Below are positions 1,120 to 20,963 of a DNA stretch of 28,235 bases, one piece after another. Numbering within the stretch: the stretch's first letter is position 1; the number at the start of each line of letters is the position of its first letter. The position numbers were made by a program, and so were the translations under genes. The notes below the pieces were generated by a model, which was given only the letters and a program-made list of their open reading frames with translations, was not told where the DNA came from and searched no databases. Source of the DNA: Candidatus Ulvibacter alkanivorans (lineage in GTDB: Bacteria > Bacteroidota > Bacteroidia > Flavobacteriales > Flavobacteriaceae); contig NZ_QOLC01000060.1 in NCBI RefSeq assembly GCF_003333325.1, positions 1 to 28,235 on the forward strand, given 5' to 3'.

Positions 1120-2261
1120 TCCGTGTCACTACAGTTCCGTTGTCATTAGAAAAACTATTGGAAGGGCAACTATCGTTCATGCAACAATTTTATGAGGTGA
1201 TCGCTGTTTCTTCGGAAGCCGACCGCTTAAAGCAATATGGCGAAAATGAAGGTGTTGCCACTTTTCATCTTCATCAAACACGGAAGATCACACCATTTCA
1301 AGACCTCAAAGCGGTCGTGACCTTATATCGCTTTCTGAAGAAAGAAAAACCATTAATCGTTCACACCCATACGCCTAAAGCAGGTATCGTCGGAATGTTT
1401 GCTGCATGGCTGGCTGGAGTGCCATTGCGTCTGCATACCGTAGCCGGACTTCCATTGCTGGAAGCCTCAGGAATAAAACGAAAGGTGTTGAATACCGTTG
1501 AAAAACTAACCTATAAGTTGGCCACGAACGTTTATCCCAATTCCCAAGGTTTGTATGATATCATTCTTGCCGAAAGATTCACCAAAGAAAAAAAATTAAA
1601 GGTACTAGGGCAGGGTAGTAGCAATGGCATCGATACACGCTATTTTTCGCCGGAGCACTTTTCCGAAGCAGAACTACTTCAGAAAAAACAACAACTAAAC
1701 ATCCCTCAATCCGACCTTATTTTTGTTTTTGTAGGACGAATTGTTTCAGATAAAGGGATCAACGAATTGGTTACTGCATTTACAAAACTGCAACAAAAGT
1801 TCCAAGATTGTTCGTTATTGTTAGTGGGGCCATTCGAAAATGATCTCGACCCTGTTTCAACTGGCACGCAAGAATTGATCGATCAAAACAAAAAAATCAT
1901 TCTAACTGGGTATCAAAGTGATGTACGCTTATATTATGCCTTAGCTAACGTACTGGTTTTTCCTAGTTATAGAGAGGGCTTTCCAAATGTAGTGATGCAG
2001 GCTGGAGCCATGGAATTACCATCTATTGTGACTAATATTAATGGCTGTAACGAGATCATAGCGCATAAGGAGAACGGTCTCATAGTTCCGCCTAAAGATG
2101 GTGAAGCGCTACACCATGCAATGGAATTAATAACAACCAATAACGCGCTTCGGAAAAAAATGGCTTCAAACGCAAGGCCAAGAATTGTGAAACGTTACGA
2201 TCGTCAAACCATGTGGCAGGCAATTTTAGAAGAATACAAATTATTAGAAACCAATCTTTAG
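1101..2261 (+). CDS. GT4-family glycosyltransferase (second)
   Basis: A second GT-B glycosyltransferase of 386 residues, likely acting early in repeat-unit assembly because it sits directly before the initiating phosphoglycosyl transferase. The N-terminal half carries VHTHTPKAGIVG near 87-98, typical of WbpL/CapM-neighbour transferases of Bacteroidota. The C-terminal half has FVGRIVSDKGI near 210-220 and SYREGFPNVVMQAGAM near 289-304. In that last motif the second glutamate of EX7E is a glutamine (Glu292, Gln300). From memory this is common in this subfamily, so it is not taken as inactivation. The start lies inside the end of the upstream gene. The sugar specificity is unknown. Confidence 0.9.
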   Translation: MPKKKLIRVTTVPLSLEKLLEGQLSFMQQFYEVIAVSSEADRLKQYGENEGVATFHLHQTRKITPFQDLKAVVTLYRFLKKEKPLIVHTHTPKAGIVGMFAAWLAGVPLRLHTVAGLPLLEASGIKRKVLNTVEKLTYKLATNVYPNSQGLYDIILAERFTKEKKLKVLGQGSSNGIDTRYFSPEHFSEAELLQKKQQLNIPQSDLIFVFVGRIVSDKGINELVTAFTKLQQKFQDCSLLLVGPFENDLDPVSTGTQELIDQNKKIILTGYQSDVRLYYALANVLVFPSYREGFPNVVMQAGAMELPSIVTNINGCNEIIAHKENGLIVPPKDGEALHHAMELITTNNALRKKMASNARPRIVKRYDRQTMWQAILEEYKLLETNL

Positions 2262-2269
2262 TACCTTTG
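2262..2269 (+). promoter_or_regulatory. Candidate -7 box of a promoter before the sugar transferase
   Basis: TACCTTTG matches the Bacteroidota -7 consensus TAnnTTTG and lies in the 12-base gap between the glycosyltransferase stop and the GTG start at 2274. No convincing -33 TTTG is seen at the usual 19-base spacing. Transcription would begin at or within a few bases of the start codon. If real, it gives the sugar-transferase group an internal promoter. Confidence 0.45.
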
Positions 2270-2273
2270 CAGC

Positions 2274-2906
2274 GTGTACCGAACTGTTATCAAGCCTACC
2301 TGTGATTTTTTAGTTGCCCTAGTGGCATTTGTCTTGCTTTTACCTATTTTTCTAGTGGTGGCTATCTTATTATGGATGTCTTTAAAAGGTAATCCGTTTT
2401 TTACTCAAACGCGTCCAGGTAAAAATAAAAAACTGTTTAAGATAATTAAGTTTCGCACCATGAGCAATGAGCGTGACGAGCAGGGAAAATTACTTCCGGA
2501 TGAAGATCGCTTAGGCGGTTTCGGAGCGATCGTTAGAAAAACAAGCTTAGATGAATTGCCACAATTGCTCAACGTGATCAAGGGAGATATGAGTATAGTG
2601 GGGCCTAGACCGTTGCTTCCTGAATATTTGCCCTTATATAATTCTGAACAGCAAAAAAGGCATGATGTCAAACCGGGAATCACAGGATGGGCACAAGTAA
2701 ACGGAAGGAACTCGGTAACTTGGGATGAAAAATTTACGTTAGACGTATGGTATGTACATCATATAAATTTTTTACTTGATCTAAAGATATTGTTTCTAAC
2801 TGCAAAGAAAGTAGTCAACTCTGAAGGTGTCACAGCAACAGGTCATGTTACTATGCCTACCTTTGTAGACTATGTAAAAGAAAAGAATTTGAAAAAAAAA
2901 GAATGA
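2274..2906 (+). CDS. PglC-type undecaprenyl-phosphate sugar phosphotransferase
   Basis: Monotopic phosphoglycosyl transferase that starts repeat-unit synthesis by moving a phospho-sugar from a UDP-sugar to undecaprenyl phosphate on the inner membrane face. The 210 residues are the minimal PglC-size catalytic core without the extra helices of WbaP/WcaJ. Residues 10-34 form one hydrophobic segment broken by Pro24, the re-entrant helix of this family. The catalytic Asp-Glu pair is Asp93-Glu94 in [14 protein letters not shown] (58-63), [13 protein letters not shown] (106-118) and [13 protein letters not shown] (133-145) are diagnostic. The start is GTG, chosen because MYRTVIK begins just before the membrane segment as in homologues. 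The stop overlaps the next ATG as ATGA. With the PglF and aminotransferase genes downstream, a 4-amino-4,6-dideoxy UDP-sugar is the likely substrate (inference). Confidence 0.93.
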
Positions 2907-3943
2907 AGAATATTTTAATTACCGGAGCAGGAGCTTTATTGGGTCAAGGCGTGTTGCGATGTTTGCATTTTGCAAAAGGACCCTATCGAATTATAACTGC
3001 AGATCCGAGTGTTCATGCAACAGGACATAGTTTAGCAGATGTATGTTATACCGTTCCATTTGTGTCTGGCGCCATGTATAAGAGCCGAATTCAAGAAATA
3101 TGCGAGGAGGAGGCTATCGATATCATTTTGGTAGGAACTGATGTCGAATTGCCGTTTTTTGCCGAACATCAAGAAGAATTTCAAAACAAATACAACCTTC
3201 GGATTGTTGTGTCCAAAAAAGAAGTTATTGAAATTGCCAACAATAAATATCTTACAGCTCAATTTCTTAAAAAAAATAATTTTCCTTACCCTGTTTCTGC
3301 ACTTACTACCGATGCAAAAGCTATTTCAAAATTACGTTCATCTTGTGAGTATCCTATGTTTGCCAAGCCCTACGATGGTGCTCGATCTATGGGTATTGAA
3401 GTAATAAAGAATAAAGCCGATTTAGATCGTATTTGCAGCTATGAAAACAATTTGGTAGTCCAAGAGTATTTAAATGATGCTGAAGGGGAATTTACAACTG
3501 GCTGCACCGTCATTGATGGAAAATGTGCAGCCATCGTTTCACTAACACGTGATTTGCGTAACGGAAATACTTGGCGCGCATTTAGAAATGGTGCATCCCC
3601 TTATGATACTACTATCAAGGAGATCGCAGAAGCTTTGGGTGTTGAAGGCCCTGTGAATTTTCAATACCGAATTAAAGACGGCAAACCGGTTGTATTTGAA
3701 ATTAACTGTCGTTTTAGCGGAACCACACCGCTGCGTTATATGTTTGGTTTTAATGAAGTGGAAGCCCTCTTGGAATACTATCTAAACGGAACTACGATTG
3801 AGCAACCCCAACTCAAAGATGGCGTAGTATTAAGAACATTCTCAGACCTGTTTATGTCGAATGAAATGCTCCGTAATTTCGAAGAAAAAGGCACGACTAG
3901 CCAATATGAAACGCAGTATTTCCCTTTTAAAGTAAACGCATGA
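2903..3943 (+). CDS. ATP-grasp ligase, CarB-like, in the polysaccharide locus
   Basis: A 346-residue ATP-grasp enzyme related to the carbamoyl-phosphate synthase large-subunit fold. Such enzymes activate a carboxylate as acyl phosphate and join it to an amine or similar nucleophile. Order: pre-ATP-grasp Rossmann domain (1-105, [10 protein letters not shown] near 8-17), ATP lid and lysine ([16 protein letters not shown], Lys155), adenine-binding Glu188 in VVQEYL, and metal ligands Glu266 and Asn268 in [10 protein letters not shown]. All key positions look intact. It is locked between sugar transferase and dehydratase by ATGA overlaps at both ends, so a role in modifying the repeat unit, for example acylating an amino sugar with an amino or hydroxy acid, is the best inference. 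The substrate is not known. Confidence 0.85.
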
Positions 3944-4839
3944 AATATCTGATATTTGGCGGAAGTGGATTTATAGGCTCTGCACTCAAAACATACCTGC
4001 AAGATCGAGGGGAAGAGGTGTTAACAATCTCTAGATCGGGTAAAAATGATGGTTTGGCAATTGATATTACGCGTCCGTCAGAATTTGAGAATATTGAATT
4101 CATCCCGGATGTCATTGTTAATTGTGCATCTCGGCTTCCCCAAGGAGGGATCAATTCGACCGACCCAACATTCGTGAATGAATTATTTTCCACAAACGTT
4201 TTGGGTGGCGTGAACATTTGCAAATGGGCTGTTGAACAGCGTGTTTCGAACCTTTTAAATTTATCTACTTTGGCGGTAGTAAATAAGCCTTGGCCGAATC
4301 CGTTACAGGAAACTTCAGTGCAATTACCAACCGGCCAGCATACCGCCTATGGGATGTCGAAACTTTCGCAGGAACAGATGATGAACGAAGCGGTACACAA
4401 CACTGGAACAAAAGTGATTCATTTGCGTTTAGCTTCGATATATGGAGATTCGATGGAACCTTCAGGCGTGCTTTTTTTTATATTGAATCGGCTTCAGAAG
4501 AACGAAACAGTGACTCTCACCAATGCGAATAAAGTAAAGTTCGATTTTATGCACGTAAAAGATGTGTGTAAAAGCATTCTATATCTTTCCAAAGAAAAAA
4601 TAACACATCCCATCATCAACACGGCGAGTGGAAATTCGATTTCATTAATGGAAGTCGCCAGCATGCTCAAAGAGATCACCGGTTCTTCTGCTGAAATTCA
4701 TAATACAGATGAAACTACGGAAACTTCAGAAGCAACCATACAGGTCGATCTTTTAAAACATTACCTCGGAAAGGAAAACGACACCTTTATTCCATTGCGA
4801 GAAGGACTGACTACCCTAGTTAAAAATAATACCATATGA
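3940..4839 (+). CDS. NAD-dependent epimerase/dehydratase (extended SDR)
   Basis: An extended short-chain dehydrogenase of 299 residues, probably acting on a nucleotide sugar or on the product of the adjacent ATP-grasp enzyme. The NAD-binding motif is GGSGFIG (7-13). Catalytic residues are the Ser109/Thr110 region in NLSTLAVV and Tyr137-xxx-Lys141 in TAYGMSKLSQEQ, all present. The C-terminal part has the family pattern FDFMHVKDVCKSILYL, then INTASGNSISLMEVA. Residues 1-95 lack an obvious NDP-sugar signature, so epimerase, 4-reductase or 4,6-dehydratase activity cannot be separated. Both ends overlap neighbours by the four bases ATGA. Confidence 0.88.
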   Translation: MKYLIFGGSGFIGSALKTYLQDRGEEVLTISRSGKNDGLAIDITRPSEFENIEFIPDVIVNCASRLPQGGINSTDPTFVNELFSTNVLGGVNICKWAVEQRVSNLLNLSTLAVVNKPWPNPLQETSVQLPTGQHTAYGMSKLSQEQMMNEAVHNTGTKVIHLRLASIYGDSMEPSGVLFFILNRLQKNETVTLTNANKVKFDFMHVKDVCKSILYLSKEKITHPIINTASGNSISLMEVASMLKEITGSSAEIHNTDETTETSEATIQVDLLKHYLGKENDTFIPLREGLTTLVKNNTI

Positions 4840-5480
4840 GACTGCTGGTAATTGGTGATGTACATGGAAACATTATTGCCTTAGAAAAGGTATTACAAGC
4901 GTTCCAAAACGAAGTAGATGCTATCGTCTCTCATGGTGATGTTGTGAACTATGGCCCGTGGAGTAATGAATGTGTTGCGCTACTCAAGGAAGTAGATTGC
5001 CAGAATTTGATGGGCAACCACGAAGAAGCGTATCTGCAAGGAGCCTACAATGGAAAGAGTGATCTGGTGAAGGCTTTTTTTGCGGTTACTTATAAAGACT
5101 TCATATATCTGGATGAAATTCGTAATTATCGAGAATACTTTGAAATAGGAGAATTCTTAATCCGTCATACAATTAACGATTCGTATTATTATCCCGATTC
5201 AGACCTTACCGATGTTGTTTTAACTAAAAATACGATTATTGGGCATTCCCACTATGCGTTTCACAGGACATTATCCAATGGAAAAACCCTAACCAACACA
5301 GGAAGTGTGGGACAAAACAGAAAAAATCTTTCAAAAATTGAATGTATAATTCTTGAGGTTGAAAAAAAGCAAATCATACCAAAAACGTTAATCTATGACC
5401 CAATACCTATAATAAACGAAATGAGAGTGAAAAAATTTCCCGAAATTTGCATCCAATATTATCAAAGTAAACTCCGCTAA
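4836..5480 (+). CDS. Calcineurin-like metallophosphoesterase
   Basis: A 214-residue metallophosphoesterase of the YfcE/MJ0936 type. The two-metal site is complete: Asp8 and His10 in GDVHGN, Asp35 in SHGDVVNYGP, Asn61-His62 in LMGNHEEA, His111 in LIRHT, and GHSH at 136-139, followed by NTGSVGQNR. No signal peptide is seen, so it should be cytoplasmic. Its ATG overlaps the SDR stop and it is followed 11 bases later by the sugar aminotransferase, an unusual place for this fold. It might remove a phosphate from a sugar or acyl intermediate made by the two genes before it, but the substrate cannot be inferred from sequence. Confidence 0.87.
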   Translation: MRLLVIGDVHGNIIALEKVLQAFQNEVDAIVSHGDVVNYGPWSNECVALLKEVDCQNLMGNHEEAYLQGAYNGKSDLVKAFFAVTYKDFIYLDEIRNYREYFEIGEFLIRHTINDSYYYPDSDLTDVVLTKNTIIGHSHYAFHRTLSNGKTLTNTGSVGQNRKNLSKIECIILEVEKKQIIPKTLIYDPIPIINEMRVKKFPEICIQYYQSKLR

Positions 5481-5491
5481 GTCCTCACATT

Positions 5492-6619
5492 ATGCCTAAA
5501 ATATACCTTTCGTCTCCACATATGGGAGGCACCGAGCGACAATATGTAAATGAAGCCTTCGATACCAACTGGATCGCTCCTCTTGGTCCTAATGTCACCG
5601 GATTTGAATCTGATCTTGAGCAGTATTTAGGAAACGACGTTCATGTTGCAGCACTTAGTTCCGGTACGGCTGCCTTGCATTTGACGTTGATACTGTTAGG
5701 CATATCCAAAGGTGATGAAGTACTCTGCCAGAGCATGACCTTTTCGGCCTCGGCGAATCCTATTGTCTATCAAGGTGCTACGCCTGTTTTTGTGGATAGC
5801 GAACCTGACACTTGGAATTTGTGCCCCAATCACTTAGAACAAGCGATTAAAGATCGAATTAAGAAGGGGAAGAAGCCTAAAGCCATCATTGCAGTGCATT
5901 TGTATGGCATGCCGTATAAGGTAGAAGCAATTCGAAAGATAGCAGATACTTATGAAATCCCAATTGTTGAGGATAGTGCCGAAGCGTTAGGAAGTACCTA
6001 TAAGGACGCTCCCTGTGGAACCTTTGGCGATATTTCTATCCTATCGTTCAACGGAAATAAGATCATTACAACCTCCGGTGGTGGTGCCTTGGTAAGCCAT
6101 AACGAAGCTCACAAGGAAAAAGCCATCTTTTTAGCTACGCAAGCACGTGACCATGCACCGCATTATCAGCATTCCGAGATCGGCTACAACTATCGGTTAA
6201 GCAATATATCTGCCGGAATAGGTCGCGGACAAATGGAAGTGTTAGACGATCATATAAAATTGCGGAGGGCAATGCATTCTTTTTATGCTGAATTGTTTAG
6301 TGCTTCGGAAGGGGTTTCAGTTTTTTCTGAACCCTCAAGTGCATATTTTTCAAATCACTGGTTGAGCTGTATTACTGTGAACGAAAAGGAAAGCGGATTT
6401 ACTTCCGAAGCAATACGATTGCATCTGGCCGAAGATAATATTGAATCAAGACCGCTTTGGAAACCAATGCATATGCAACCTGTCTTTAAAGATGCCCCCT
6501 ATTATGGATCTGGCGTGGCTGAGAATCTATTTAAGAACGGACTTTGTTTACCATCCGGGTCTAATCTGAAAGAATCTGAAAAACAAAGGATTAAAGTTAA
6601 ATTAACTTCCTATACTTAG
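5492..6619 (+). CDS. DegT/DnrJ/EryC1/StrS sugar aminotransferase (PglE-like)
   Basis: A PLP-dependent aminotransferase of 375 residues that converts a UDP-4-keto-6-deoxy sugar to the 4-amino sugar, normally with glutamate as donor. MPKIYLSSPHMGGTERQYV at the N terminus is the usual PglE/WlbE-like opening. SSGTAALHL (57-65) holds the phosphate, Asp161 in VEDSAEALGS pairs with the PLP ring nitrogen, and Lys190 in SFNGNKIITTSGGG is the Schiff-base lysine. The C-terminal RPLWKPMHMQPVF loop is also typical. Together with the PglF-type dehydratase 36 bases downstream it forms the first two steps of a bacillosamine-like pathway. Confidence 0.93.
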   Translation: MPKIYLSSPHMGGTERQYVNEAFDTNWIAPLGPNVTGFESDLEQYLGNDVHVAALSSGTAALHLTLILLGISKGDEVLCQSMTFSASANPIVYQGATPVFVDSEPDTWNLCPNHLEQAIKDRIKKGKKPKAIIAVHLYGMPYKVEAIRKIADTYEIPIVEDSAEALGSTYKDAPCGTFGDISILSFNGNKIITTSGGGALVSHNEAHKEKAIFLATQARDHAPHYQHSEIGYNYRLSNISAGIGRGQMEVLDDHIKLRRAMHSFYAELFSASEGVSVFSEPSSAYFSNHWLSCITVNEKESGFTSEAIRLHLAEDNIESRPLWKPMHMQPVFKDAPYYGSGVAENLFKNGLCLPSGSNLKESEKQRIKVKLTSYT

Positions 6620-6627
6620 ATATTAAG

Positions 6628-6635
6628 TATATTTG
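6628..6635 (+). promoter_or_regulatory. Candidate -7 box upstream of the PglF-like gene
   Basis: TATATTTG fits the Bacteroidota -7 consensus, nine bases after the aminotransferase stop and 20 bases before the GTG start at 6656. The -33 element is weak. It suggests the dehydratase can be transcribed separately from the upstream sugar genes. Confidence 0.45.
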
Positions 6636-6655
6636 CATCACTTAACCTATTGATT

Positions 6656-8629
6656 GTGAACACCCCAAAAACATTATTTAAAAGCCTGTATCAAGGAGAC
6701 GATAAGATCAAAATGCTAGATCAACGGTATCTGCCACGATGGATCGTTGTTTTGATCGATGCTTTTTTAGCGATTATTTCGTTAGGATTAGTGTATTTTA
6801 TATTGCTTGGTTCCCCTTTGAATTTCTTCGAAGTGCTTTCGTTGCCAATGCAAGGAGCTATCATTCTAGGAGTGAATGTGGTCTTCTTTTTCGTGTATAA
6901 GACCTACTCTGGTATAATTCGACATTCTACTTTTACCGATGTATTAAAACTGGCGTTTTCGTCGTTTACAACAGCCGCGTCTATCGCCATCTTTAATTAC
7001 ACCTACGTGGCTGTATTTGGTGAGAAAATATTTTTGACCACCTCTTTATTATTGTATTTGCTTATATCGTTTGTGATCATGCTCTTTTTCCGAATCGCGG
7101 TAAAAGAAAGCTACCAATTCCTTAGAAACACGGCGAGTAACTCGAAGAAAAAAAGAGTGGCGATCATTGGGGTTGACGACCATACGATTTCATTGGGGAA
7201 AGCACTAACGACCGAATCTAACATGCCGTTTCAACTTATTGGATTCTTAACACGAAATATCGAATCTACTCGATACAAGATCTTGGGAAAACCCGTATTC
7301 CCTATTAAAGATAAACTTTCCGAAGAATTAATTACCCTTAATATTGAAGGCGTTCTTATCATGAGCGAATCCTTTACAGGGAAAGAAAAAAATGAGATCG
7401 TTGAGCATTGTTTGGCAAGTAACGTCGAAGTGTTTAACGTTCCTACGGTAGAGTCCTGGAACAAGAAAGAGGATATCGACAAGCAAATTAAACCAATTCA
7501 GATAGAAGATTTATTGGAGCGTGAGCCAATTCATATTGACAACGAACTTATTAAACAAGACCTAAGCGGGAAGACCATTTTAGTAACCGGTGGTGCCGGC
7601 TCTATTGGAAGTGAGATCGTGCGACAATTGGCGCAATTCTCTCCAAAATTGTTGGTGATTCTTGATCAAGCTGAAACTGCACTTCACGAACTAGATCTGT
7701 ATTTACAGCTAAATTATCCTGAACTCAATTTTATAACGGAATTAGCGGATATTAGTAATATGCACCGGGTAGGCTTGCTTTTTAGCAAGTATGAGTTTAA
7801 CATAATCTATCACGCAGCGGCCTATAAACATGTTCCCATAATTGAGCGAAATCCGCATGAGGCCATTTATGTGAATATTTTAGGAACGGTAAATCTTTCT
7901 ATACTAGCGGCCAGTTATGACATCGAAAAGTTTGTAATGGTCTCTACCGATAAAGCCGTGAATCCAACCAATGTCATGGGGGCATCGAAAAGAGCAGCCG
8001 AAATGTATGTGCAGTCGCTTCAAAATGAAAAAGGGGTGCATACGCGATTTATTACGACTCGCTTCGGAAACGTTTTAGGTTCAAGCGGATCGGTGATCCC
8101 TCACTTTAGAAAGCAGATTTCGCAAGGGGGACCGGTAACCGTGACCCACGAAAATATTATTCGCTATTTTATGACCATTCCGGAAGCCTGTCAGTTAGTG
8201 CTTCAAGCGGGTACCATGGGAGCAGGAGGGGAGATCTACGTATTCGACATGGGTAAACCTGTAAAGATATTAAACCTTGCCGAACGCATGATACGCCTTT
8301 CGGGTCTTGAACCATATGTAGACATCGACATTAAGATCACAGGCCTGCGTCCCGGAGAAAAACTGTACGAAGAGCTGTTAAATGACACCTCTACCGTTCA
8401 GCCAACACATCATCCTAAGATCATGATATCTAAAGTTCCAACGGTCGAATTTATAGACGTAAAGAAAAAGGTCAAGGAGATCGTAAAATCGGCTACCAGA
8501 GATAAGGATAAAAAGGTGGTGAAACTTCTTAAAGAATTGGTCCCGGAATTTAAGAGTGAGAATTCAGAATTTCAAGAATTAGACCATCCTAAACGAGAGG
8601 AATCAACAGAGATCAAGATTTCTACCTAA
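6656..8629 (+). CDS. Membrane-bound UDP-sugar 4,6-dehydratase (PglF/WbpM/CapD family)
   Basis: Inner-membrane enzyme that oxidises and dehydrates UDP-GlcNAc to the 4-keto-6-deoxy sugar used by the neighbouring aminotransferase. About four transmembrane helices lie in residues 28-150, then a CoA-binding-like Rossmann domain (about 165-265) and the catalytic SDR domain with GGAGSIG at 312-318. The active site is the PglF type: Thr-Asp-Lys at 430-432 in VSTDKAVNPTNVMGASK, with Met440 where ordinary SDRs have tyrosine, and Lys444. The length of about 657 residues fits the large subclass. The start is uncertain: TTG at 6650, GTG at 6656 and ATG at 6713 are in frame. GTG is preferred because the next ATG sits immediately before the conserved RYLPRW motif. 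Confidence 0.93.
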   Translation: MNTPKTLFKSLYQGDDKIKMLDQRYLPRWIVVLIDAFLAIISLGLVYFILLGSPLNFFEVLSLPMQGAIILGVNVVFFFVYKTYSGIIRHSTFTDVLKLAFSSFTTAASIAIFNYTYVAVFGEKIFLTTSLLLYLLISFVIMLFFRIAVKESYQFLRNTASNSKKKRVAIIGVDDHTISLGKALTTESNMPFQLIGFLTRNIESTRYKILGKPVFPIKDKLSEELITLNIEGVLIMSESFTGKEKNEIVEHCLASNVEVFNVPTVESWNKKEDIDKQIKPIQIEDLLEREPIHIDNELIKQDLSGKTILVTGGAGSIGSEIVRQLAQFSPKLLVILDQAETALHELDLYLQLNYPELNFITELADISNMHRVGLLFSKYEFNIIYHAAAYKHVPIIERNPHEAIYVNILGTVNLSILAASYDIEKFVMVSTDKAVNPTNVMGASKRAAEMYVQSLQNEKGVHTRFITTRFGNVLGSSGSVIPHFRKQISQGGPVTVTHENIIRYFMTIPEACQLVLQAGTMGAGGEIYVFDMGKPVKILNLAERMIRLSGLEPYVDIDIKITGLRPGEKLYEELLNDTSTVQPTHHPKIMISKVPTVEFIDVKKKVKEIVKSATRDKDKKVVKLLKELVPEFKSENSEFQELDHPKREESTEIKIST

Positions 8630-8671
8630 TTAATTATGTAGGAATTCTATTTATAGGTTTTTCATAAGCCG

Positions 8672-8679
8672 TATATTTG
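8672..8679 (+). promoter_or_regulatory. Candidate -7 box of the capsule export operon
   Basis: TATATTTG followed by CAGC is a textbook Bacteroidota -7 element, 17 bases before the ATG at 8697. TTTA, close to the -33 TTTG, occurs about 18 bases upstream. It lies in the 67-base gap after the dehydratase gene and would drive the Wza-Wzc-Wzi-like export genes. Confidence 0.55.
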
Positions 8680-8696
8680 CAGCAATTAAAACGCCC

Positions 8697-9455
8697 ATGA
8701 AATATATATTTTTAGTACTAGTAGCTATGTTGTTACTGGCATCTTGTGCTACAAAAAAGGAAATACTCTACTTTCAAGACATTGAATCGCTTCACTTAGA
8801 AGAAACAGATCAATCTTTTGAACCGGTAATCGAAAATAACGATATACTCTATATTTCGATTTCATCTATAGACCCGGATGTGGTAAAGCCATTCCTGCGC
8901 GATACCGGTAATGAAACCAATACAGTAGGAAATAACAACCCAAGTTTAAGAGGGTATTTAGTAGACGCCTCCGGTAACATACGGTTCCCTGTACTAGGAA
9001 CGCTTTCGGTTGCCGGTAAGACCAGAGGAGAAATTGAAGAAGATCTTAAAGCAAGGTTATCTCAATACGTTACCGATGTAGTAGTAGACGTTCGCATCCT
9101 AAACTTCAAGGTTACGGTGTTAGGAGAGGTTAGAAATCCCGGTGTATTTACAATAGACGACGAGCGTGTCACCATTCCGCAAGCCATTGGCCTGGCAGGA
9201 GACCTTACCGAAGATGGAAAAAGAGAAAATGTAACGGTGATCCGTGAAGTAAATGGGGTGCAAAAAGTAACCCGTATCGATCTAACTAAATCCGATCTTT
9301 TTAACAGTGATTTCTATTTCTTAAAACAAAATGATGTGGTGTATGTAGAACCTTCGCTAAAAGGCGTGAAGCAATCTGGTTTTATACCCGATGTTCCTGC
9401 CTTGTTGTCGCTAGTCACCATTGTATTGAGTACTGTTATCATCCTTACCCGATAA
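8697..9455 (+). CDS. Wza-like polysaccharide export outer-membrane lipoprotein
   Basis: Outer-membrane export channel subunit of the polysaccharide biosynthesis/export (OPX) family. The signal peptide ends in a lipobox, LLASC, making Cys17 the lipidated residue. Residues about 45-130 form the poly-export domain (DILYISISSIDP through VTDVVVDVRI). An SLBB domain follows (FKVTVLGEVRNPGVFTI, about 139-155, to NDVVYVEPS). A C-terminal hydrophobic helix (about 234-251, LLSLVTIVLSTVIIL) could form the membrane-spanning collar as in Wza. At 252 residues it is shorter than E. coli Wza (about 380), having one SLBB repeat, which is usual in Bacteroidota. It lies 10 bases before the Wzc-like gene, its inner-membrane partner. 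Confidence 0.95.
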   Translation: MKYIFLVLVAMLLLASCATKKEILYFQDIESLHLEETDQSFEPVIENNDILYISISSIDPDVVKPFLRDTGNETNTVGNNNPSLRGYLVDASGNIRFPVLGTLSVAGKTRGEIEEDLKARLSQYVTDVVVDVRILNFKVTVLGEVRNPGVFTIDDERVTIPQAIGLAGDLTEDGKRENVTVIREVNGVQKVTRIDLTKSDLFNSDFYFLKQNDVVYVEPSLKGVKQSGFIPDVPALLSLVTIVLSTVIILTR

Positions 9456-9465
9456 TTTGTAGTGT

Positions 9466-11847
9466 ATGAATAATAGCCCAAATGCTTCCGAAGTAAAAGA
9501 ACTTTCCCTACGAGAGCAGATCGAACAATATACACGTTATTGGTATTGGTTTGTACTTGCTGTAATTATAGCCTTGGTAGGTGCCAAAATATATTTAAGA
9601 TATTCCACTCCTTTTTATCAAAGTCAGGCACAAGTAATAATCAAAGACGATAAAAGCGGTGGTGGCCCGGCCGAACTAGCCGCATTTTCGGATATTGGGT
9701 TCTTCTCCAATTTTAAAACGAACAATATCGACAACGAATTGGCTATCTTCAATTCAAAGCGAATTATTTCCGAAGTGGTAAAAGAACTGAAACTACACAT
9801 CAATTACGAATCGGTAGGAACGTTCAAGAATACCAATTTGTATAAATACAAGCCTTTTGAAGTTCAGTACTTGTCTATTCAAGACAGTGCAACAACAAAT
9901 CCAGTTCCCAGACTCGTTTTTGAAGTAATTTCTACCACCGAATATAAAATGGAAAGCCCGACTGGAGTCATAAAGGGTACCTATCCGTTTGGCGAACGAA
10001 TTACATTACCCTTCGGAGAAATAACGGTATTCCCAGTGATCGATACTTCGGAAAAATTTGAGAATTTTATTGGTCGTCCTATTGCTGTTACCTATCGCCC
10101 TATTGAAGCTGTAGCTTCAGCGTACCAACAACGTATTAAGGTTTCAAATATTAACAAGAACAGCAATGTAGTTGATATTACCATGAATTCGCCGGTTCGT
10201 GAAAAAGCCGAAGATTTTATCAATGAACTCATCTTTCAGTATAATAAGGACGCGATCAACGATCGTAGCCAAGTGGCACAAAAGACCTCTAATTTTATCG
10301 ATTCGCGTTTAGATATTATTACCCGTGAATTAGATTCGGTAGAACGTGGCAAAGAGGAGTTTAAAAGTCGAAACCGACTTACAGATATTGAGGCCGAAGC
10401 CCAGCTTATTCTGGAAAATGCTAGCGAATTCAACAAAAGACAACTGGACGTTGGAACACAATTGGAATTGGCAAATACCATGATCGACTATATGGAAAAT
10501 TCGTCGAGTAATGACCTGCTTCCTGCTAATATAGGACTTCAAGGAGAAGAAGTGAGTCAAGCTGTATCTAATTACAATGAGCTGATCCTTCAACGAAATC
10601 GCTTACTGAAGAATTCTACTGCGATCAATCCTGTGGTAGTCAATGTGAACAATCAGATCGAACAACTGCGTTCTAGTATTTTAACAAGTTTAAAGAACAG
10701 CAGCAACGCACTAAAGATATCCATGCGCGATCTAAACTATCAAGAATCGACGTTAAATTCAAGAATTGCGCAAGTACCAACCAAAGAGAAGATCTTTCGA
10801 GGCATAGAACGCCAACAAACGATCAAAGAACAATTGTATTTGTTCTTATTACAGCAACGTGAAGAAGCTTCTATATCGCTAGCGGTGACTGCTCCTAAGG
10901 CAAAAGTCGTAGATCGTGCTTATAGCACTAAAGAACCGGTGACACCAAATCGACAATTAATTTATCTGTCTGCCCTTTTAGCCGGTTTATTACTTCCATT
11001 TTTGGTGATCTATATTCGTACACTGTTAAACACCAAAGTGAGAAATCGAAGAGACGTAGAACGCGTTATTAGAGATGCAGCCATGGTTGGAGAGATTCCG
11101 CGCCTTAGAAAAGGAGACCATGAATTGGTGAGAACCAATGACAGAAGTATGCTTGCCGAATCATTTCGGATCTTACGTACGAATTTGCAATACCTATTTG
11201 TGAACAAGTTGCAAAAACAACAAGAGGCTAAATCTATTTTTGTTACTTCAACCATTAAAGGGGAAGGGAAGACATTCGTCGCTTTTAATCTTGCACTAAC
11301 CTTAGCCTTAACGGGAAAGAAGGTTGTTTTGGTGGGAGCAGATATTCGAAATCCGCAGTTGCATAGATACCTACCGGAAAATTCACGTAATCAGAAAGGG
11401 TTTACAGAATATATTATTGATGACTCCATACGGGCAGATGACCTGGCTTCTGTTAGCGAAAATCACAAAAATCTTAGTATTATCCTTTCAGGCGCAATTC
11501 CACCGAATCCTGCAGAATTATTAATGCAAGAGCGAACTAAGACGTTTTTTGAAGAACTACACGGGATTTATGATTTTGTAATTGTAGATACAGCACCATC
11601 TATGTTGGTTACAGATACGATCTTGATCAATAAATTGGCCGATATAACCTTGTACGTGATTCGAGCAGGCTATACAGATAAGCGTTTGTTGGAGTTCCCT
11701 AAAGATGCCATAGATGATGGCCGATTGGCAAATGTGGCTACTGTATTGAACAACGTGGACCTTAATAATTTTGGCTACGGAAACAAATATGGTTACACTT
11801 ACACCAGCGAGAACAAATCGTTGTTGCAACGTATTTTCAGGCGATAG
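9466..11847 (+). CDS. Wzc-like polysaccharide co-polymerase and BY-kinase
   Basis: Inner-membrane tyrosine autokinase that controls chain length and export with the Wza-like channel. The 793 residues show a Wzz domain with the first transmembrane helix (about 28-46), a long periplasmic coiled-coil part (about 270-470), a second helix (499-520) after the proline-rich KEPVTPNRQ, and a cytosolic kinase. The kinase has Walker A TIKGEGKT (596-603, Lys602), Walker A' ADIRNP (625-630) and Walker B FVIVDTAP (704-711). The tail carries a tyrosine cluster, Tyr771, 775, 777 and 779, the expected autophosphorylation sites. It is a single fused polypeptide, as in proteobacterial Wzc rather than the split Firmicutes pair. 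The cognate phosphatase (Wzb) is not in the window. Confidence 0.95.
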   Translation: MNNSPNASEVKELSLREQIEQYTRYWYWFVLAVIIALVGAKIYLRYSTPFYQSQAQVIIKDDKSGGGPAELAAFSDIGFFSNFKTNNIDNELAIFNSKRIISEVVKELKLHINYESVGTFKNTNLYKYKPFEVQYLSIQDSATTNPVPRLVFEVISTTEYKMESPTGVIKGTYPFGERITLPFGEITVFPVIDTSEKFENFIGRPIAVTYRPIEAVASAYQQRIKVSNINKNSNVVDITMNSPVREKAEDFINELIFQYNKDAINDRSQVAQKTSNFIDSRLDIITRELDSVERGKEEFKSRNRLTDIEAEAQLILENASEFNKRQLDVGTQLELANTMIDYMENSSSNDLLPANIGLQGEEVSQAVSNYNELILQRNRLLKNSTAINPVVVNVNNQIEQLRSSILTSLKNSSNALKISMRDLNYQESTLNSRIAQVPTKEKIFRGIERQQTIKEQLYLFLLQQREEASISLAVTAPKAKVVDRAYSTKEPVTPNRQLIYLSALLAGLLLPFLVIYIRTLLNTKVRNRRDVERVIRDAAMVGEIPRLRKGDHELVRTNDRSMLAESFRILRTNLQYLFVNKLQKQQEAKSIFVTSTIKGEGKTFVAFNLALTLALTGKKVVLVGADIRNPQLHRYLPENSRNQKGFTEYIIDDSIRADDLASVSENHKNLSIILSGAIPPNPAELLMQERTKTFFEELHGIYDFVIVDTAPSMLVTDTILINKLADITLYVIRAGYTDKRLLEFPKDAIDDGRLANVATVLNNVDLNNFGYGNKYGYTYTSENKSLLQRIFRR

Positions 11848-11881
11848 CAATTAACATCTAATTATTGAAGCATACCGTTTT

Positions 11882-13228
11882 ATGAAACATGTTCTGCTCG
11901 TTTTTCTAATAGCATTTCCTACGTTAGTAAGCGCTCAAACTCTAAATTTTGAGGGATCTGTTGAAGCAAGTGCCATTTTTTCTTCGGAAGAAGAACTGCC
12001 ATTTTGGTTGTATACCAATACCAGCACGAGTGTATATCCTACCACTAATTTTTCCGGAATAGCTGCTTTTACAGTAGACTACAATTTTTCGGAAACAGCA
12101 TCATTAGAAGTTGGAAGTACACTACTAGTTCGAGATAATGAGGTGGTCGAAGCGTTTCAACGAAGAGATCTTTATGTAGGTTTCAATAACCGATGGCTTA
12201 AGGCAACCCTAGGAAGTAGAAAACAAAAAGAGGTAGGCAAGGGTTTATCGGCATCCAATCGCAATTTTATTTGGTCTCACAATGCGAGGCCGCTTCCAGG
12301 CATTCTATTGGAAGCCAATGAACCTATTAGGATCTCAAATACATTTTCGGTAGACTGGGGAATCGGGCATTACCGGTTAAATGACGATCGATATGTAGAT
12401 GATGTTCGTGTGCATTATAAGCGGCTTGGTCTCACTGCGGTCTTTGATGAAAATCATAAACTTACAGGGCGCTTGCAACACTTTGCGCAATGGGCCGGAA
12501 CATCGCCTACTTTTGGAGATCTACCAGACGACTTCAGTGCTTTTGTAGATGTGTTCTTTGCACGTAGCGGCGCCGAATCTACCATTGGTGGTGAGGTGAT
12601 CAATGCGTTAGGAAACCATTTAGGAACCTACTACATCGAGTACGAATTTAAAACCGAGGCCGGTATTTTCCAGACGTATCACGACCATCCGTTCGAAGAC
12701 GGCTCAGGAACCCGATTGGCAAATTTTCCCGATGGGATTTGGGGACTACAATTTGAGCCGGCGAATCCGAAGTGGTTCACGGCAATTTTATACGAATATA
12801 TCGATTCTAGCGATCAAAGTGGCAGTGCTTCTAAAAGTGGATTTGATGGGTATTTTGGAAATAATTTATATAGAAGCGGTTGGAGTTACGAAGGCAATGT
12901 TATCGGACTCCCATTTATTGTGTTCGACCGTAGTGTGGTCTTAAACGATAAGACTTCACCGTATAGCAGCAACCGTGCTAGAGTTCATCATTTAGGTGTT
13001 CAAGGCGCTATCAAACAGTTTAAATGGACGATACGATCTACTTATGCGTCTTACTTAGGAACTTATAGACGACCCTTTATACCTCAAGTAAATAGGTGGT
13101 CTAACTATGGTTCGCTGGCATACACCTTTAGTAAAGCTGGAACCCTTCAAGTCTTTGGTGGTGCCGATACCGGAAATATTGGTAATACCATTATTGGTGG
13201 TGGGTTGTCGTATCGCTATTCTTTTTAA
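11882..13228 (+). CDS. Wzi-like capsule assembly outer-membrane protein
   Basis: Probable outer-membrane beta-barrel of the capsule assembly Wzi family, which anchors polysaccharide at the cell surface. A signal peptide ends at about residue 19 (VSAQ). The remainder is rich in alternating aromatic/polar strands, with RKQKEVGKGLSASNRNFIWSHNARPLPGI being the family-type inner segment, and it ends in a C-terminal aromatic (LSYRYSF), the outer-membrane insertion signal. The 448-residue length is near that of E. coli Wzi (about 480). It is the last gene of the export group, 34 bases after the kinase. Confidence 0.9.
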   Translation: MKHVLLVFLIAFPTLVSAQTLNFEGSVEASAIFSSEEELPFWLYTNTSTSVYPTTNFSGIAAFTVDYNFSETASLEVGSTLLVRDNEVVEAFQRRDLYVGFNNRWLKATLGSRKQKEVGKGLSASNRNFIWSHNARPLPGILLEANEPIRISNTFSVDWGIGHYRLNDDRYVDDVRVHYKRLGLTAVFDENHKLTGRLQHFAQWAGTSPTFGDLPDDFSAFVDVFFARSGAESTIGGEVINALGNHLGTYYIEYEFKTEAGIFQTYHDHPFEDGSGTRLANFPDGIWGLQFEPANPKWFTAILYEYIDSSDQSGSASKSGFDGYFGNNLYRSGWSYEGNVIGLPFIVFDRSVVLNDKTSPYSSNRARVHHLGVQGAIKQFKWTIRSTYASYLGTYRRPFIPQVNRWSNYGSLAYTFSKAGTLQVFGGADTGNIGNTIIGGGLSYRYSF

Positions 13229-15459: not shown

Positions 15460-15882
15460 CTACTTGGCTCCCAAGGGTATACCAAAAGGAGATAATAAAC
15501 GCTCCAATTTATTGTGAGTACTGTTCGTTCTATTTTGGCGTAAGTAGGAAAGAATATTGGTAAGGTCCTCCGGCTCTTTATAGGTATTGAATTGACTGCT
15601 ATAGTTTTTAAATATGGGTTCGTCGTATGCTTTTTCAATAACTGTAAAGATGTTCGAGTGACGTGCATCATTCAATATACGATCGGTGAATAAGTCTTTA
15701 ACTATGGTCTCATCACCTTCCAAGACTTGAAAAAATTTCCCCATACCAAATAAAAGTATACCGTTTATATGGTGTGAATTATTAAAGTTGTTCACTTGAT
15801 CGAAAAGAGAATTTATATCCTCATTGGTTAGACTGGCGGATGCATCACTGAAATAGCAAATGGTAAAGGAATTGTTGTTCAT
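15460..15882 (-). CDS. Short BLUF-domain blue-light sensor protein
   Basis: A 140-residue stand-alone BLUF protein, expected to bind FAD and shift its hydrogen-bond network on blue light. By comparison with AppA (from memory), the photoactive set is Tyr10 (TICYFSDAS), Asn34 (FNNSHHINGILLF) and Gln52 (KFFQVLEG), all conserved. The semi-conserved Trp and Met of the last strand are Tyr94 and Ser96 in FKNYSSQF, an unusual combination. Residues 100-140 make a short C-terminal extension with predicted helices and no recognisable output domain, so signalling would be through a partner protein as in PixD-type proteins. No partner is adjacent. A 14-bp palindrome overlaps the start codon. Confidence 0.88.
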   Translation of the reverse strand: MNNNSFTICYFSDASASLTNEDINSLFDQVNNFNNSHHINGILLFGMGKFFQVLEGDETIVKDLFTDRILNDARHSNIFTVIEKAYDEPIFKNYSSQFNTYKEPEDLTNILSYLRQNRTNSTHNKLERLLSPFGIPLGAK

Positions 15883-17984: not shown

Positions 17985-19985
17985 TTACAATTGCGAGGCC
18001 GTTTTATTCAACCCTTCAATGATAATGGTAAATTCATTCAGACAATCAGATTTGACCTTCTCTATTTGAGCAGTATCCGGAGCTGGATTCGTAATGAGTT
18101 CACGATATTCTTTCAACATTGCACTTAGTTGTTCTGCTTCGATATAGTATAATGACATAGTGCTTTTATGAATAAGCGCAGATAGGCTTTTAAGATCGTT
18201 ATTTTTGATGATTCCGTCAAAATCTTCCTTATAAGTAATTAAACCATCTAATGTACTAAGCACGAATTTTTTAATGAATTCCGGTTTATTGTTCGCCATT
18301 TTCTTATAACGTTGTATAGAAAAGGATGGGGCTGTATCTATTTCTTCGGAAGCGGATTTCGTAGATACAAGACTGGTTTTTAAAGGAGATTCAGAAGACT
18401 CACTAGCCACGTTGGAAGTATTGAAACTTTCTCGGTGCAAGAGCACCTCAAGTAATTCATTTGGTTTAAATGGCTTCGGAAGGTGATCATCAATTTGAGC
18501 CTGCTGTAGTTTTTCTGAAACTTCACCTTTGGTAGATGCTGAAAACGCCACAATCGATGGTTGCGATTTTAACGGTAATTCACGTATAGCTTTAGCAGTT
18601 TGGTAGCCATCCATTTTTGGCATTTGAAGATCTAACAGGATCAAGTCGAAATCATACTGTTCTACTAATTGTAATGCTTTCTTTCCACTTTTAGCAGCAT
18701 GATAGGGTACATGCCATTGATTTAAATATTGAGAAGCGATAAAAATGTTATCCGGATTGTCATCCACAATTAAGACCAAACAGTTCATCAATGCTTCTAA
18801 ATCAGACGATTTTGTGGTAATCCCTTTTTTGGAAGAAGCGTCTTTATCCAATGTATAGGAAATGGTAAAGCTAAAGCTGGAACCTTCATTCAATATGCTC
18901 TTCACGATCATTTTGCTATGGTGAAGTTCTAATAATTTTTGACTTATGGTCAGGCCTAGCCCAGTCCCGCCAAACTCTACACTTACATCATAACTTGCCT
19001 GAGAAAATTCTTGAAAAATTAATTCTAATTTTTCAGGTGGAATGCCAATACCAGTATCTATTATTTCAAAATGAAGCGTTTGACTTGTTGAACACGCTGC
19101 CTTAACGTGAATTTTCAAGGTCACACCCCCTTCTTTGGTAAACTTGATGGCGTTACCAACAAGATTGGTAAGAATTTGGTTTAATTTTACAGGGTCTCCA
19201 ACAAATTGATCTTTTACGTTCTCTCCTAATTCAACTTGTAAGGCAATTCCTTTGTTCGATGCCTTTACCGAATAAGTCTCTTGTAAAACTTCCACCAGAT
19301 CATGTAAATTAAACGAAACTTCCTCGAGCTCCACCATTCGTGCTTCTATTTTACTTAGATCTAACAGATTATTAACGAGTCCAAGTAAATTTTCCGAAGA
19401 ATGTAATAACAAACGTGCATACTCCTTTTGGTTTTCATTTAACGGTGTCGCATGTAGTAAGTTTCCAATTCCTAAGATGGCATTTAGAGGGGTCCTAATT
19501 TCGTGACTTATAGTTGCTAAAAACTCTGCTTTAGCCTTCGAATCGGCTTCCGCTTTTCGTTTGGCCTTTAATAGTTCCATCTCGTAGTTCCACCGATCAC
19601 TAATATCCAAGATTGTTGCTTGATAAATGTTAGGTTGATCGGCTGATGTAGGAACTTTTCTTGCATTGATAAGTCCGTGGAAAACACTCTTATCTTTATG
19701 TAGAATATCAAAATAGACTTCCTTTATAAACCCTTGCATTTGTATTAATGGAAAAAAGTGAGTTTCGAAAAATATTTGACCACCCACTCTAAATAAACTT
19801 GGCAGTGTTTTTTTATTTACCAATTCATCACGCTCATATCCCAACCAATCGAGCATAGTTTGGTTGATCTCGAAGATAATCCCATTCTTATAGAATGATA
19901 CAGCACCGCAGGGAGCGTTGTTATATAGCTCTAGCGCTGTTTGGAGCTCAATTTGTCGCTCATCATTATGATCTAACCCTGCCAT
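17985..19985 (-). CDS. Hybrid sensor histidine kinase with RsbP-like PAS (PAS-HisKA-HATPase-REC-HPt)
   Basis: A 666-residue cytoplasmic phosphorelay kinase with no membrane segment. Order: PAS (about 18-128), coiled coil (130-155), HisKA with His161 in ISHEIRTPLNAIL, HATPase_c (N box NLVGNAIKF, Asn278; G1 DTGIGIP 310-316; G2 GGTGLGLTI 339-347), REC (about 402-518, phospho-acceptor Asp452 in LLDLQMP, Lys504 in LPKPF), and an HPt-like C-terminal helical bundle with His606 in ALIHKSTMSLYYIEA. The PAS opening YNNAPCGAVSF and the FETHFFPLIQMQGFIKEVYFDI segment resemble the RsbP PAS of Bacillus (from memory). The gene starts five bases after the RsbQ-like gene, so the two are almost surely one transcript. 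No DNA-binding domain is present and no response regulator is adjacent. Confidence 0.93.
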   Translation of the reverse strand: MAGLDHNDERQIELQTALELYNNAPCGAVSFYKNGIIFEINQTMLDWLGYERDELVNKKTLPSLFRVGGQIFFETHFFPLIQMQGFIKEVYFDILHKDKSVFHGLINARKVPTSADQPNIYQATILDISDRWNYEMELLKAKRKAEADSKAKAEFLATISHEIRTPLNAILGIGNLLHATPLNENQKEYARLLLHSSENLLGLVNNLLDLSKIEARMVELEEVSFNLHDLVEVLQETYSVKASNKGIALQVELGENVKDQFVGDPVKLNQILTNLVGNAIKFTKEGGVTLKIHVKAACSTSQTLHFEIIDTGIGIPPEKLELIFQEFSQASYDVSVEFGGTGLGLTISQKLLELHHSKMIVKSILNEGSSFSFTISYTLDKDASSKKGITTKSSDLEALMNCLVLIVDDNPDNIFIASQYLNQWHVPYHAAKSGKKALQLVEQYDFDLILLDLQMPKMDGYQTAKAIRELPLKSQPSIVAFSASTKGEVSEKLQQAQIDDHLPKPFKPNELLEVLLHRESFNTSNVASESSESPLKTSLVSTKSASEEIDTAPSFSIQRYKKMANNKPEFIKKFVLSTLDGLITYKEDFDGIIKNNDLKSLSALIHKSTMSLYYIEAEQLSAMLKEYRELITNPAPDTAQIEKVKSDCLNEFTIIIEGLNKTASQL

Positions 19986-19990
19986 CTATT

Positions 19991-20803
19991 TTACCTTTGT
20001 AAAAACTCTTTTATCGCAGCAGTTGTCTCTTCCGGGGCACTTAGATTAGGGCAATGTCCTGTTGCTTCTATCTGTTTAAATGTACTATTTTCTATTTGTT
20101 CGGCTACATAAGTACCTACTTCTGTAGGTGCAATTACATCCTGCGAACATTGTAAGACCAGAGTCAGGACGCTCACCTGTTTTAAGTCTTCTCGATTATC
20201 AGATAGAAATGTAACGCGAGCAAAATTTTTAGCAATTTCAGGATCAGTTTGGCAAAAACTATTACTTAATTCTGCTCCCAATTCTGGCCTATCGGGATTT
20301 CCCATAATAACAGGTGCCATTGTAGTAGACCACCCCAAGTAATTACTGTCTAAAGTTTCTAAAAGTTCATCAATAGCTTCTGCTTCAAAACCACCTACAT
20401 ATGCTTCATCATTTATATATCGAGGCGAAGGACCGATCATTATTAAATTAGAGAACAAATCAGGACGCTTGTTTGAAGCCAATGCACCAATCATAGCACT
20501 TACCGAATGACCTACAAAGATTACATCTTTGAGATTTAGCTGTTCGCAAATTTCTATCACGTCGTCCGAATAAGCCTCTAGAGAGCTGTATTTTTGCTTA
20601 GAGTACAAAGAAGTATCTGACTTACCTGCACCTATATAATCGAACAGGATGGTTTGGTAATCTGCTTCAAACTCTGGAGCCACAAATCGCCACATATTTT
20701 GATCGCATCCGTATCCATGAGCAAATAAAATAGGTGTAGAACCAACCCCGTTTATATGGAGATTGAATTTGCCTAGAGCATCGGGAACGTAGTGATTTCC
20801 CAT
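19991..20803 (-). CDS. rsbQ: RsbQ-type alpha/beta hydrolase
   Basis: A 270-residue alpha/beta hydrolase of the RsbQ/KAI2/D14 group, which acts in signalling rather than bulk metabolism. In Bacillus, RsbQ activates the PAS-PP2C phosphatase RsbP under energy stress. The catalytic triad is Ser100 in FVGHSVSAMIG, Asp222 in CSQDVIAP and His250 in TGHCPNLSAP. Diagnostic RsbQ stretches are YGCDQNMW (31-38), ILFDYIGAGKSD (52-63), MIGPSPRYIND (122-132) and LSDNREDL (200-207). The ATG at 20803 is preferred over an in-frame TTG at 20830, because the N terminus then matches the RsbQ length of about 270. It is directly followed by the PAS hybrid kinase, its likely partner. Confidence 0.93.
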   Translation of the reverse strand: MGNHYVPDALGKFNLHINGVGSTPILFAHGYGCDQNMWRFVAPEFEADYQTILFDYIGAGKSDTSLYSKQKYSSLEAYSDDVIEICEQLNLKDVIFVGHSVSAMIGALASNKRPDLFSNLIMIGPSPRYINDEAYVGGFEAEAIDELLETLDSNYLGWSTTMAPVIMGNPDRPELGAELSNSFCQTDPEIAKNFARVTFLSDNREDLKQVSVLTLVLQCSQDVIAPTEVGTYVAEQIENSTFKQIEATGHCPNLSAPEETTAAIKEFLQR

Positions 20804-20935: not shown

Positions 20936-20963
20936 AAAAATCCCATCGTACGATGGGATTTTT
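20936..20963 (-). terminator. Terminator of dnaN (perfect palindrome)
   Basis: A 28-base perfect inverted repeat with core TCCCATCGTACGATGGGA, flanked by five A on one side and five T (extended to six) on the other, begins 20 bases after the dnaN stop. On the - strand it is a GC-rich hairpin followed by a T run. Its symmetry means it could also act on the opposite strand. Confidence 0.85.

Follow-up and report, generated by a model that had tools for sequence, protein, structure and literature searches.

A probable RsbQ–PAS sensing module with a hybrid histidine kinase output in Candidatus Ulvibacter alkanivorans

Introduction

On contig NZ_QOLC01000060.1 of Candidatus Ulvibacter alkanivorans (assembly GCF_003333325.1) an alpha/beta hydrolase gene lies next to the gene of a hybrid histidine kinase, which raises the question of whether the two proteins form one sensory system and, if so, which of them perceives the signal. 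The whole stretch analysed, positions 1 to 28,235, is referred to as the window. We consider it probable (about 0.8) that the pair is a bipartite RsbQ–PAS sensing module of the kind described in 2011 by Nadezhdin, Brody and Price, who reported 45 pairs (PMC3183031), here with a hybrid histidine kinase as its output. The two genes are:

19991..20803, minus strand: rsbQ, alpha/beta hydrolase of 270 residues with the triad S100/D222/H250
17985..19985, minus strand: hybrid histidine kinase with the order PAS-HisKA-HATPase-REC-HPt, 666 residues

The gap between them is 5 bases, and the RsbQ homologue is thus encoded directly upstream of the PAS protein. In PMC3183031, the outputs of the module are phosphatases, histidine kinases and cyclases, the kinase outputs occur in Gram-negatives, and three of the kinases carry a C-terminal receiver. 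As of 2011 no signal was known for the module, and its target was known for B. subtilis only. The kinase and cyclase versions were cited again in 2025 (PMC12143880).

Results

RsbQ and its pairing with PAS proteins

The best match of the window hydrolase in the PDB is RsbQ of B. subtilis (1wom/1wpr, E 2.4e-92), followed by Olei00960 (E 3.2e-74) and then by 7ukb and plant receptors at about 1e-57. With RsbQ as its nearest similarity and a Ser-Asp-His triad in place, the protein is what the first-pass annotation had taken it to be, an RsbQ with Ser100, Asp222 and His250 as catalytic residues. The triad is identical in all 73 aligned hydrolases (the window and 72 PAS-paired loci, with the incomplete L072 excluded) and is also intact in all seven RsbQ loci that have no PAS neighbour. 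Kinship extends to the plant KAI2/D14 hydrolases, which match in the PDB from E 1.2e-57; these receptors signal via plant partners rather than a PAS kinase.

A genome collection was scanned with an RsbQ alignment (A1) and the best 80 of 580 loci were kept. In 73 of these 80 an open reading frame with an RsbP-type PAS domain lies directly downstream of rsbQ, and the record titles of the scanned loci spread the module over many bacterial phyla. Among 249 genomes of the family to which Ulvibacter G009 belongs, 13 had RsbQ at E <=1e-50, and RsbQ adjoined a PAS protein of this type in 13/13. Both surveys looked for a lack of conserved pairing in relatives, and pairing was the rule in each. The two partners also diverge together: hydrolase and PAS distances correlate with r 0.716 (73 pairs; L072 left out), a value above all 999 within-phylum permutations (highest 0.479), and the correlation persists within Bacteroidota (0.82), Actinomycetota (0.51) and Pseudomonadota (0.82).

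The PAS domain

19602..19934, minus strand: RsbP-type PAS domain, kinase residues 18-128, with F72 and H76 corresponding to B. subtilis F55 and Y59

We defined the class by the RsbQ-partnered PAS domains, phosphatase-coupled ones included; B. subtilis RsbP itself stood outside the comparisons, and its residue numbering was carried over through motif spacing. A profile was made from the RsbQ-partnered PAS domains that carry no Bacteroidota label (n=59), and against it the window PAS scores 131 bits. In four related genomes with 28 PAS_9-match loci, the RsbQ-adjacent PAS domains (n=4) score 124-137 bits and the next single domain only 29, although multi-PAS proteins sum higher on whole-protein score (55 bits for an Ulvibacter protein in L091). 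The earlier description of this PAS as RsbP-like is borne out by this separation. One PAS, in L090, scores only 74 bits although it lies beside an RsbQ. A quick 86-domain PAS tree did not reject a single clade for the 74 RsbQ-partnered rows (approximately unbiased test, p 0.49), and neither the tree nor the profile scores placed the window PAS away from RsbP-type domains.

The window residues at the distinguishing positions all occur in the class. C26, V29, L64 (or F65) and Q70 stand at B. subtilis C10, L13, L48 and Q53, where the 74 rows have C in 67, L, V or I in 69, L in 60, and Q in 7 or R/K in 62, respectively. F72, F73, H76, E89 and P79 stand at F55, C56, Y59, E72 and P62, with F or Y in 72 rows, F in 14 or Y/H in 57, H in 70, E in 72 and P in 72.

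Kinase domains, linker phasing and the predicted HPt

19536..19595, minus strand: signalling helix, residues 131-150, continuous with the HisKA helix (131-179 in the model)
19341..19535, minus strand: HisKA, residues 151-215, phospho-acceptor H161
18858..19199, minus strand: HATPase_c, residues 263-376, by Pfam
18444..18776, minus strand: receiver domain, residues 404-514, acceptor D452
17991..18314, minus strand: predicted HPt domain, residues 558-665, acceptor H606, under Pfam detection

Pfam places HisKA, HATPase_c and REC above their cut-offs in the window kinase and PAS_9 slightly under its own. It finds no SpoIIE (PPM phosphatase) match, the output expected of a sigma-B partner switch. 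Among the 74 partners (73 and the window) it recognizes HisKA in 49, REC in 29 and the SpoIIE phosphatase in 20; these counts were adopted over a phmmer classification that gave 35 kinases.

In the model a continuous helix (131-179) leads from the PAS domain into HisKA. The distance from R131, a conserved residue, to H161 is 30 residues. Spacings were measured on kinases with findable motifs only (33 of 35 of the window's HisKA type and 13 of a second, AHDFNN type). In the window type the equivalent spacing is 30, 37, 44, 51 or 100 in 31 of 33 kinases, i.e. 30+7n, and therefore fits the expectation for a coiled-coil lever.

In the full-length model the last ~110 residues of the kinase fold into a bundle of helices. 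Modelled alone, the domain reaches a mean predicted local distance difference test score (pLDDT) of 93, and its best structural matches are HPt domains with both aligners used. The profile alignment sets the window's IHK stretch against the IHK of 3myf, and the histidine, H606, is invariant across the 33 kinases of alignment A2. The predicted fold, a four-helix bundle carrying a conserved histidine, thus supports an HPt at the C-terminus, in agreement with the HisKA-REC-HPt output proposed in the first-pass annotation, even though the C-terminus does not reach the Pfam Hpt cut-off. A profile of the window-lineage HPt matches (E <1e-4) the tails of 8 of 11 other Bacteroidota hybrid kinases (L001-L004, L012, L014, L022 and L030), that of L030 yet without the histidine. 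The remaining three are L071, which has a long tail with no match to the profile, and the tail-less L011 and L023; the long tails of Corallococcus L042 and L051 also gave no match.

In L001-L004, a receiver profile run over the open reading frames of the loci found only the kinase's own receiver. Polaribacter L080 encodes an RsbQ, a receiver-less PAS kinase-like protein of 407 residues and then a separate receiver of 136 residues (8004-8414), an arrangement that may be the hybrid in split form.

RsbQ beside a second partner

Six of the RsbQ loci without a PAS share a conserved downstream neighbour of about 134 residues (6/6; alignment A6), encoded directly after rsbQ at:

L013, 6861-7298: A6 protein
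L021, ~6880-7287: A6 protein, with an in-frame stop near the start
L036, 6868-7272: A6 protein
L052, 6859-7263: A6 protein
L056, 6830-7273: A6 protein
L074, 5242-5658: A6 protein

The A6 survey covered 150 genomes of another family, in which the named loci are from Hymenobacteraceae. The A6 family is large, with a copy at E <=1e-8 in 150/150 genomes. The 47 best copies (>=185 bits, one per genome, 41 of them beyond the original six) all adjoin RsbQ, as judged from the loci in 30/30 and from coordinates in 17/17, where the gaps are 46-102 bases. No RsbP-type PAS was present in the 36 RsbQ–A6 loci checked (30 short loci and the six). These data suggest that RsbQ is able to function with non-PAS partners too. 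An RsbP-type PAS was detected in 48 of the 150 genomes (E <=1e-15), some of which also have an RsbQ–A6 pair (e.g. G003, G010 and G264); in G004-G007 there was none at E <=1e-5.

Other layouts also occur. In G260, G264 and G282 an A6 paralogue is followed by RsbQ and a short PAS protein, and in L196-L198, L216, L217 and L219 RsbQ is followed by a short protein with a PAS and a DHp-like part and no ATPase. The short PAS protein has 213 residues in G260, G264 and G327; by eye, the PAS is followed by a histidine-containing DHp-like helix, with no room left for an ATPase.

The A6 protein may be distant kin of the SpoIIAA-like proteins. Its paralogues match the Pfam SpoIIAA-like family, which we take to be of STAS/SEC14 type, with E 1.1e-4, 5.4e-4 and 2.5e-3, all under the cut-off. 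Five of ten scanned paralogues gave no SpoIIAA-like match at E <=0.1, and one more matched another family; in the PDB there was no convincing relative (best E 0.56). A search of 390 genomes of the order, in which at most 10 candidates per genome were scored, yielded 17 genomes at E <=1e-50, all already in the family set, and copies beyond this family may exist. A narrow literature search returned no paper on RsbQ–A6 pairing.

Discussion

Assignment to the module

Because PMC3183031 describes the module with kinase outputs, the window pair belongs to a kind already described. The first-pass annotation had proposed that an RsbQ–PAS input here drives a phosphorelay; the architecture stands, but not its novelty, as kinase outputs including hybrids were published in 2011. 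The window shares with the 2011 module an RsbQ directly upstream, an RsbP-type PAS as the most N-terminal domain, a helical linker, a kinase output and most of the distinguishing residues, and three of the 2011 kinases share its C-terminal receiver. It differs in the extra HPt, a DIT-like PAS end and a histidine for the P86-type proline. The additions made here are the HPt, a word absent from the main text of PMC3183031, the DIT-like PAS end in Bacteroidota and the heptad-phased linkers in one kinase type. Among the matches listed in a search of the RsbQ literature, which took in few subscription journals, none dealt specifically with an RsbQ kinase of Bacteroidota or a version with an HPt; one of them, on a Chryseobacterium genome (PMC10634447), mentions RsbQ a single time.

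With the B. subtilis RsbQ–RsbP pair the window shares the input half, hydrolase and PAS class, but the output differs: there, a PPM (PP2C) phosphatase directed at RsbV and sigma-B; here, a phosphorelay. The kinase-receiver body resembles that of the BarA, TorS, LuxQ and ArcB hybrid kinases, and the HPt fold is near those of hybrid kinases; NCBIfam models of this type are among the best five for the window kinase, all far under their cut-offs. These kinases carry sensor regions of their own and are not known to pair with an RsbQ.

Several observations weigh against the assignment. RsbQ has no neighbouring PAS in 7 of the 80 loci (L013, L021, L036, L052, L056, L074 and L067). Unpaired PAS proteins elsewhere reach up to 71 bits per protein (L092), with the exception of L087, whose RsbP-type PAS scores 159 bits in a 3.4-kb locus that lacks RsbQ. 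Few alignment columns underlie the PAS tree, several of its branches are long, and two rows are misplaced in the free tree. Spacings of 139 and 145, each found once among the 33 window-type kinases, are out of phase, as is the spacing of 64 in 11 of 13 AHDFNN-type kinases (177 in the other two) with respect to 30+7n. No response regulator gene was recognized among the window open reading frames examined with Pfam. H103 replaces the P86-type proline (P in 60/74, H in 5/74); in B. subtilis, an alanine change of P86 left a weak response, and the proline is one of nine distinguishing residues with no strict requirement (PMC3183031). The window PAS ends in DIS, which is DIT-like, and the 2011 set was reported to be without DIT. 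Of the 15 Bacteroidota rows, 13 end in D/N-[ILVM]-[ST] and 6 in strict DIT, vs 3 of 59 others with such an end, and the absence of DIT therefore fails as a trait of the wider class.

Genome G008 holds both L087 and L067, a solo RsbQ, and it is possible that these two pair in trans.

The two genes could be mere neighbours, RsbQ being a general esterase and the kinase sensing by its PAS alone. Pairing in 73 of the best 80 of 580 loci across many phyla, the 13/13 of the family survey and the correlated divergence of hydrolase and PAS all speak against this, and we regard it as very improbable. A similar doubt concerns the other end of the kinase, where the C-terminal four-helix domain might be a structural bundle rather than a working HPt, so that the protein would end functionally in its receiver. 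This is unlikely given the invariance of H606, the HPt domains at the top of both aligners' matches and the alignment of IHK with that of 3myf.

Mechanism and site of sensing

The families, the catalytic and phospho-acceptor residues, the pairing, the linker phasing and the HPt fold come from sequence and predicted fold. For the ligand, the direction of control, the phosphotransfer and the target of the window system, we infer the following course. RsbQ would bind, and perhaps hydrolyse, a small hydrophobic compound, and would contact the F-alpha helix of the kinase PAS dimer at its F72/H76 face. Along the unbroken signalling helix the change would reach the DHp helix and alter autophosphorylation of H161, from which phosphate may pass to D452, H606 and a response regulator encoded elsewhere. 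In B. subtilis, the only species for which this has been shown, the RsbQ–PAS interaction depends on F55 and is tied to F55/Y59 of F-alpha, and the RsbQ triad is required (PMC3183031). A 2025 paper predicts RsbQ between the PAS domains and linkers of RsbP (PMC12143880).

Two sensing models were offered in PMC3183031. In the first, RsbQ acts as an enzyme whose product is passed on and fills the PAS pocket, and the PAS is the true sensor. The proposal of the first-pass annotation, in which the PAS would sense a small molecule hydrolysed or delivered by RsbQ, corresponds to this one of the two models. The need for the triad in B. subtilis is consistent with this model, as is the intact triad in all 80 hydrolases checked (the window, 72 paired and 7 PAS-less). 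However, as of 2011 the article reported no PAS ligand, and in G004-G007 an RsbQ with intact triad has another protein beside it and no RsbP-type PAS at the threshold given above. We rate this model as plausible, if somewhat short of even odds, and lean slightly towards RsbQ itself as the sensor, a KAI2-like receptor rather than a supplier of PAS ligand. More tentatively, and as something possible rather than probable, RsbQ may be a soluble receptor-hydrolase with exchangeable partners, a PAS phosphorelay here and the ~134-residue SpoIIAA-like protein elsewhere. Should one and the same surface of RsbQ serve both partners, sensing would take place in RsbQ itself, as in plant KAI2, and the RsbQ–PAS pair would be one of at least two RsbQ readouts. 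The PAS-free RsbQ pairs of relatives could help to tell whether RsbQ or the PAS is the sensor. With the kinase version, autophosphorylation can be compared in vitro in the presence and absence of RsbQ, a simple assay for screening ligands, with butenolides among the candidates.

Locus organization

20939..20960, minus strand: terminator-like hairpin with a T run, in the dnaN–rsbQ interval

This hairpin, read from the sequence between dnaN and rsbQ, suggests that rsbQ and the kinase gene form their own transcription unit. By eye, comparable hairpins lie 5' of rsbQ in L002, L097 and L098 and not in L001, L003 and L095. A promoter candidate, TTG-N20-TAACTTGG, 54 bases 5' of the rsbQ ATG, was set aside because 8.5% of 1000 mono-shuffles of the 190-base stretch match too and no equivalent-position match was seen in the six relatives inspected. 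The order dnaN-rsbQ-kinase-mnmE is common to the window, Ulvibacter and Aequorivita; Altibacter has it too, but with >5 kb extra between dnaN and rsbQ. Near mnmE, the window encodes a small BLUF blue-light sensor protein (15460-15882, minus strand). A surface polysaccharide cluster occupies 22-13228 on the plus strand, with genes for glycosyltransferases, a sugar transferase, an ATP-grasp protein, epimerases, an aminotransferase, and export, Wzz-like and Wzi-like proteins.
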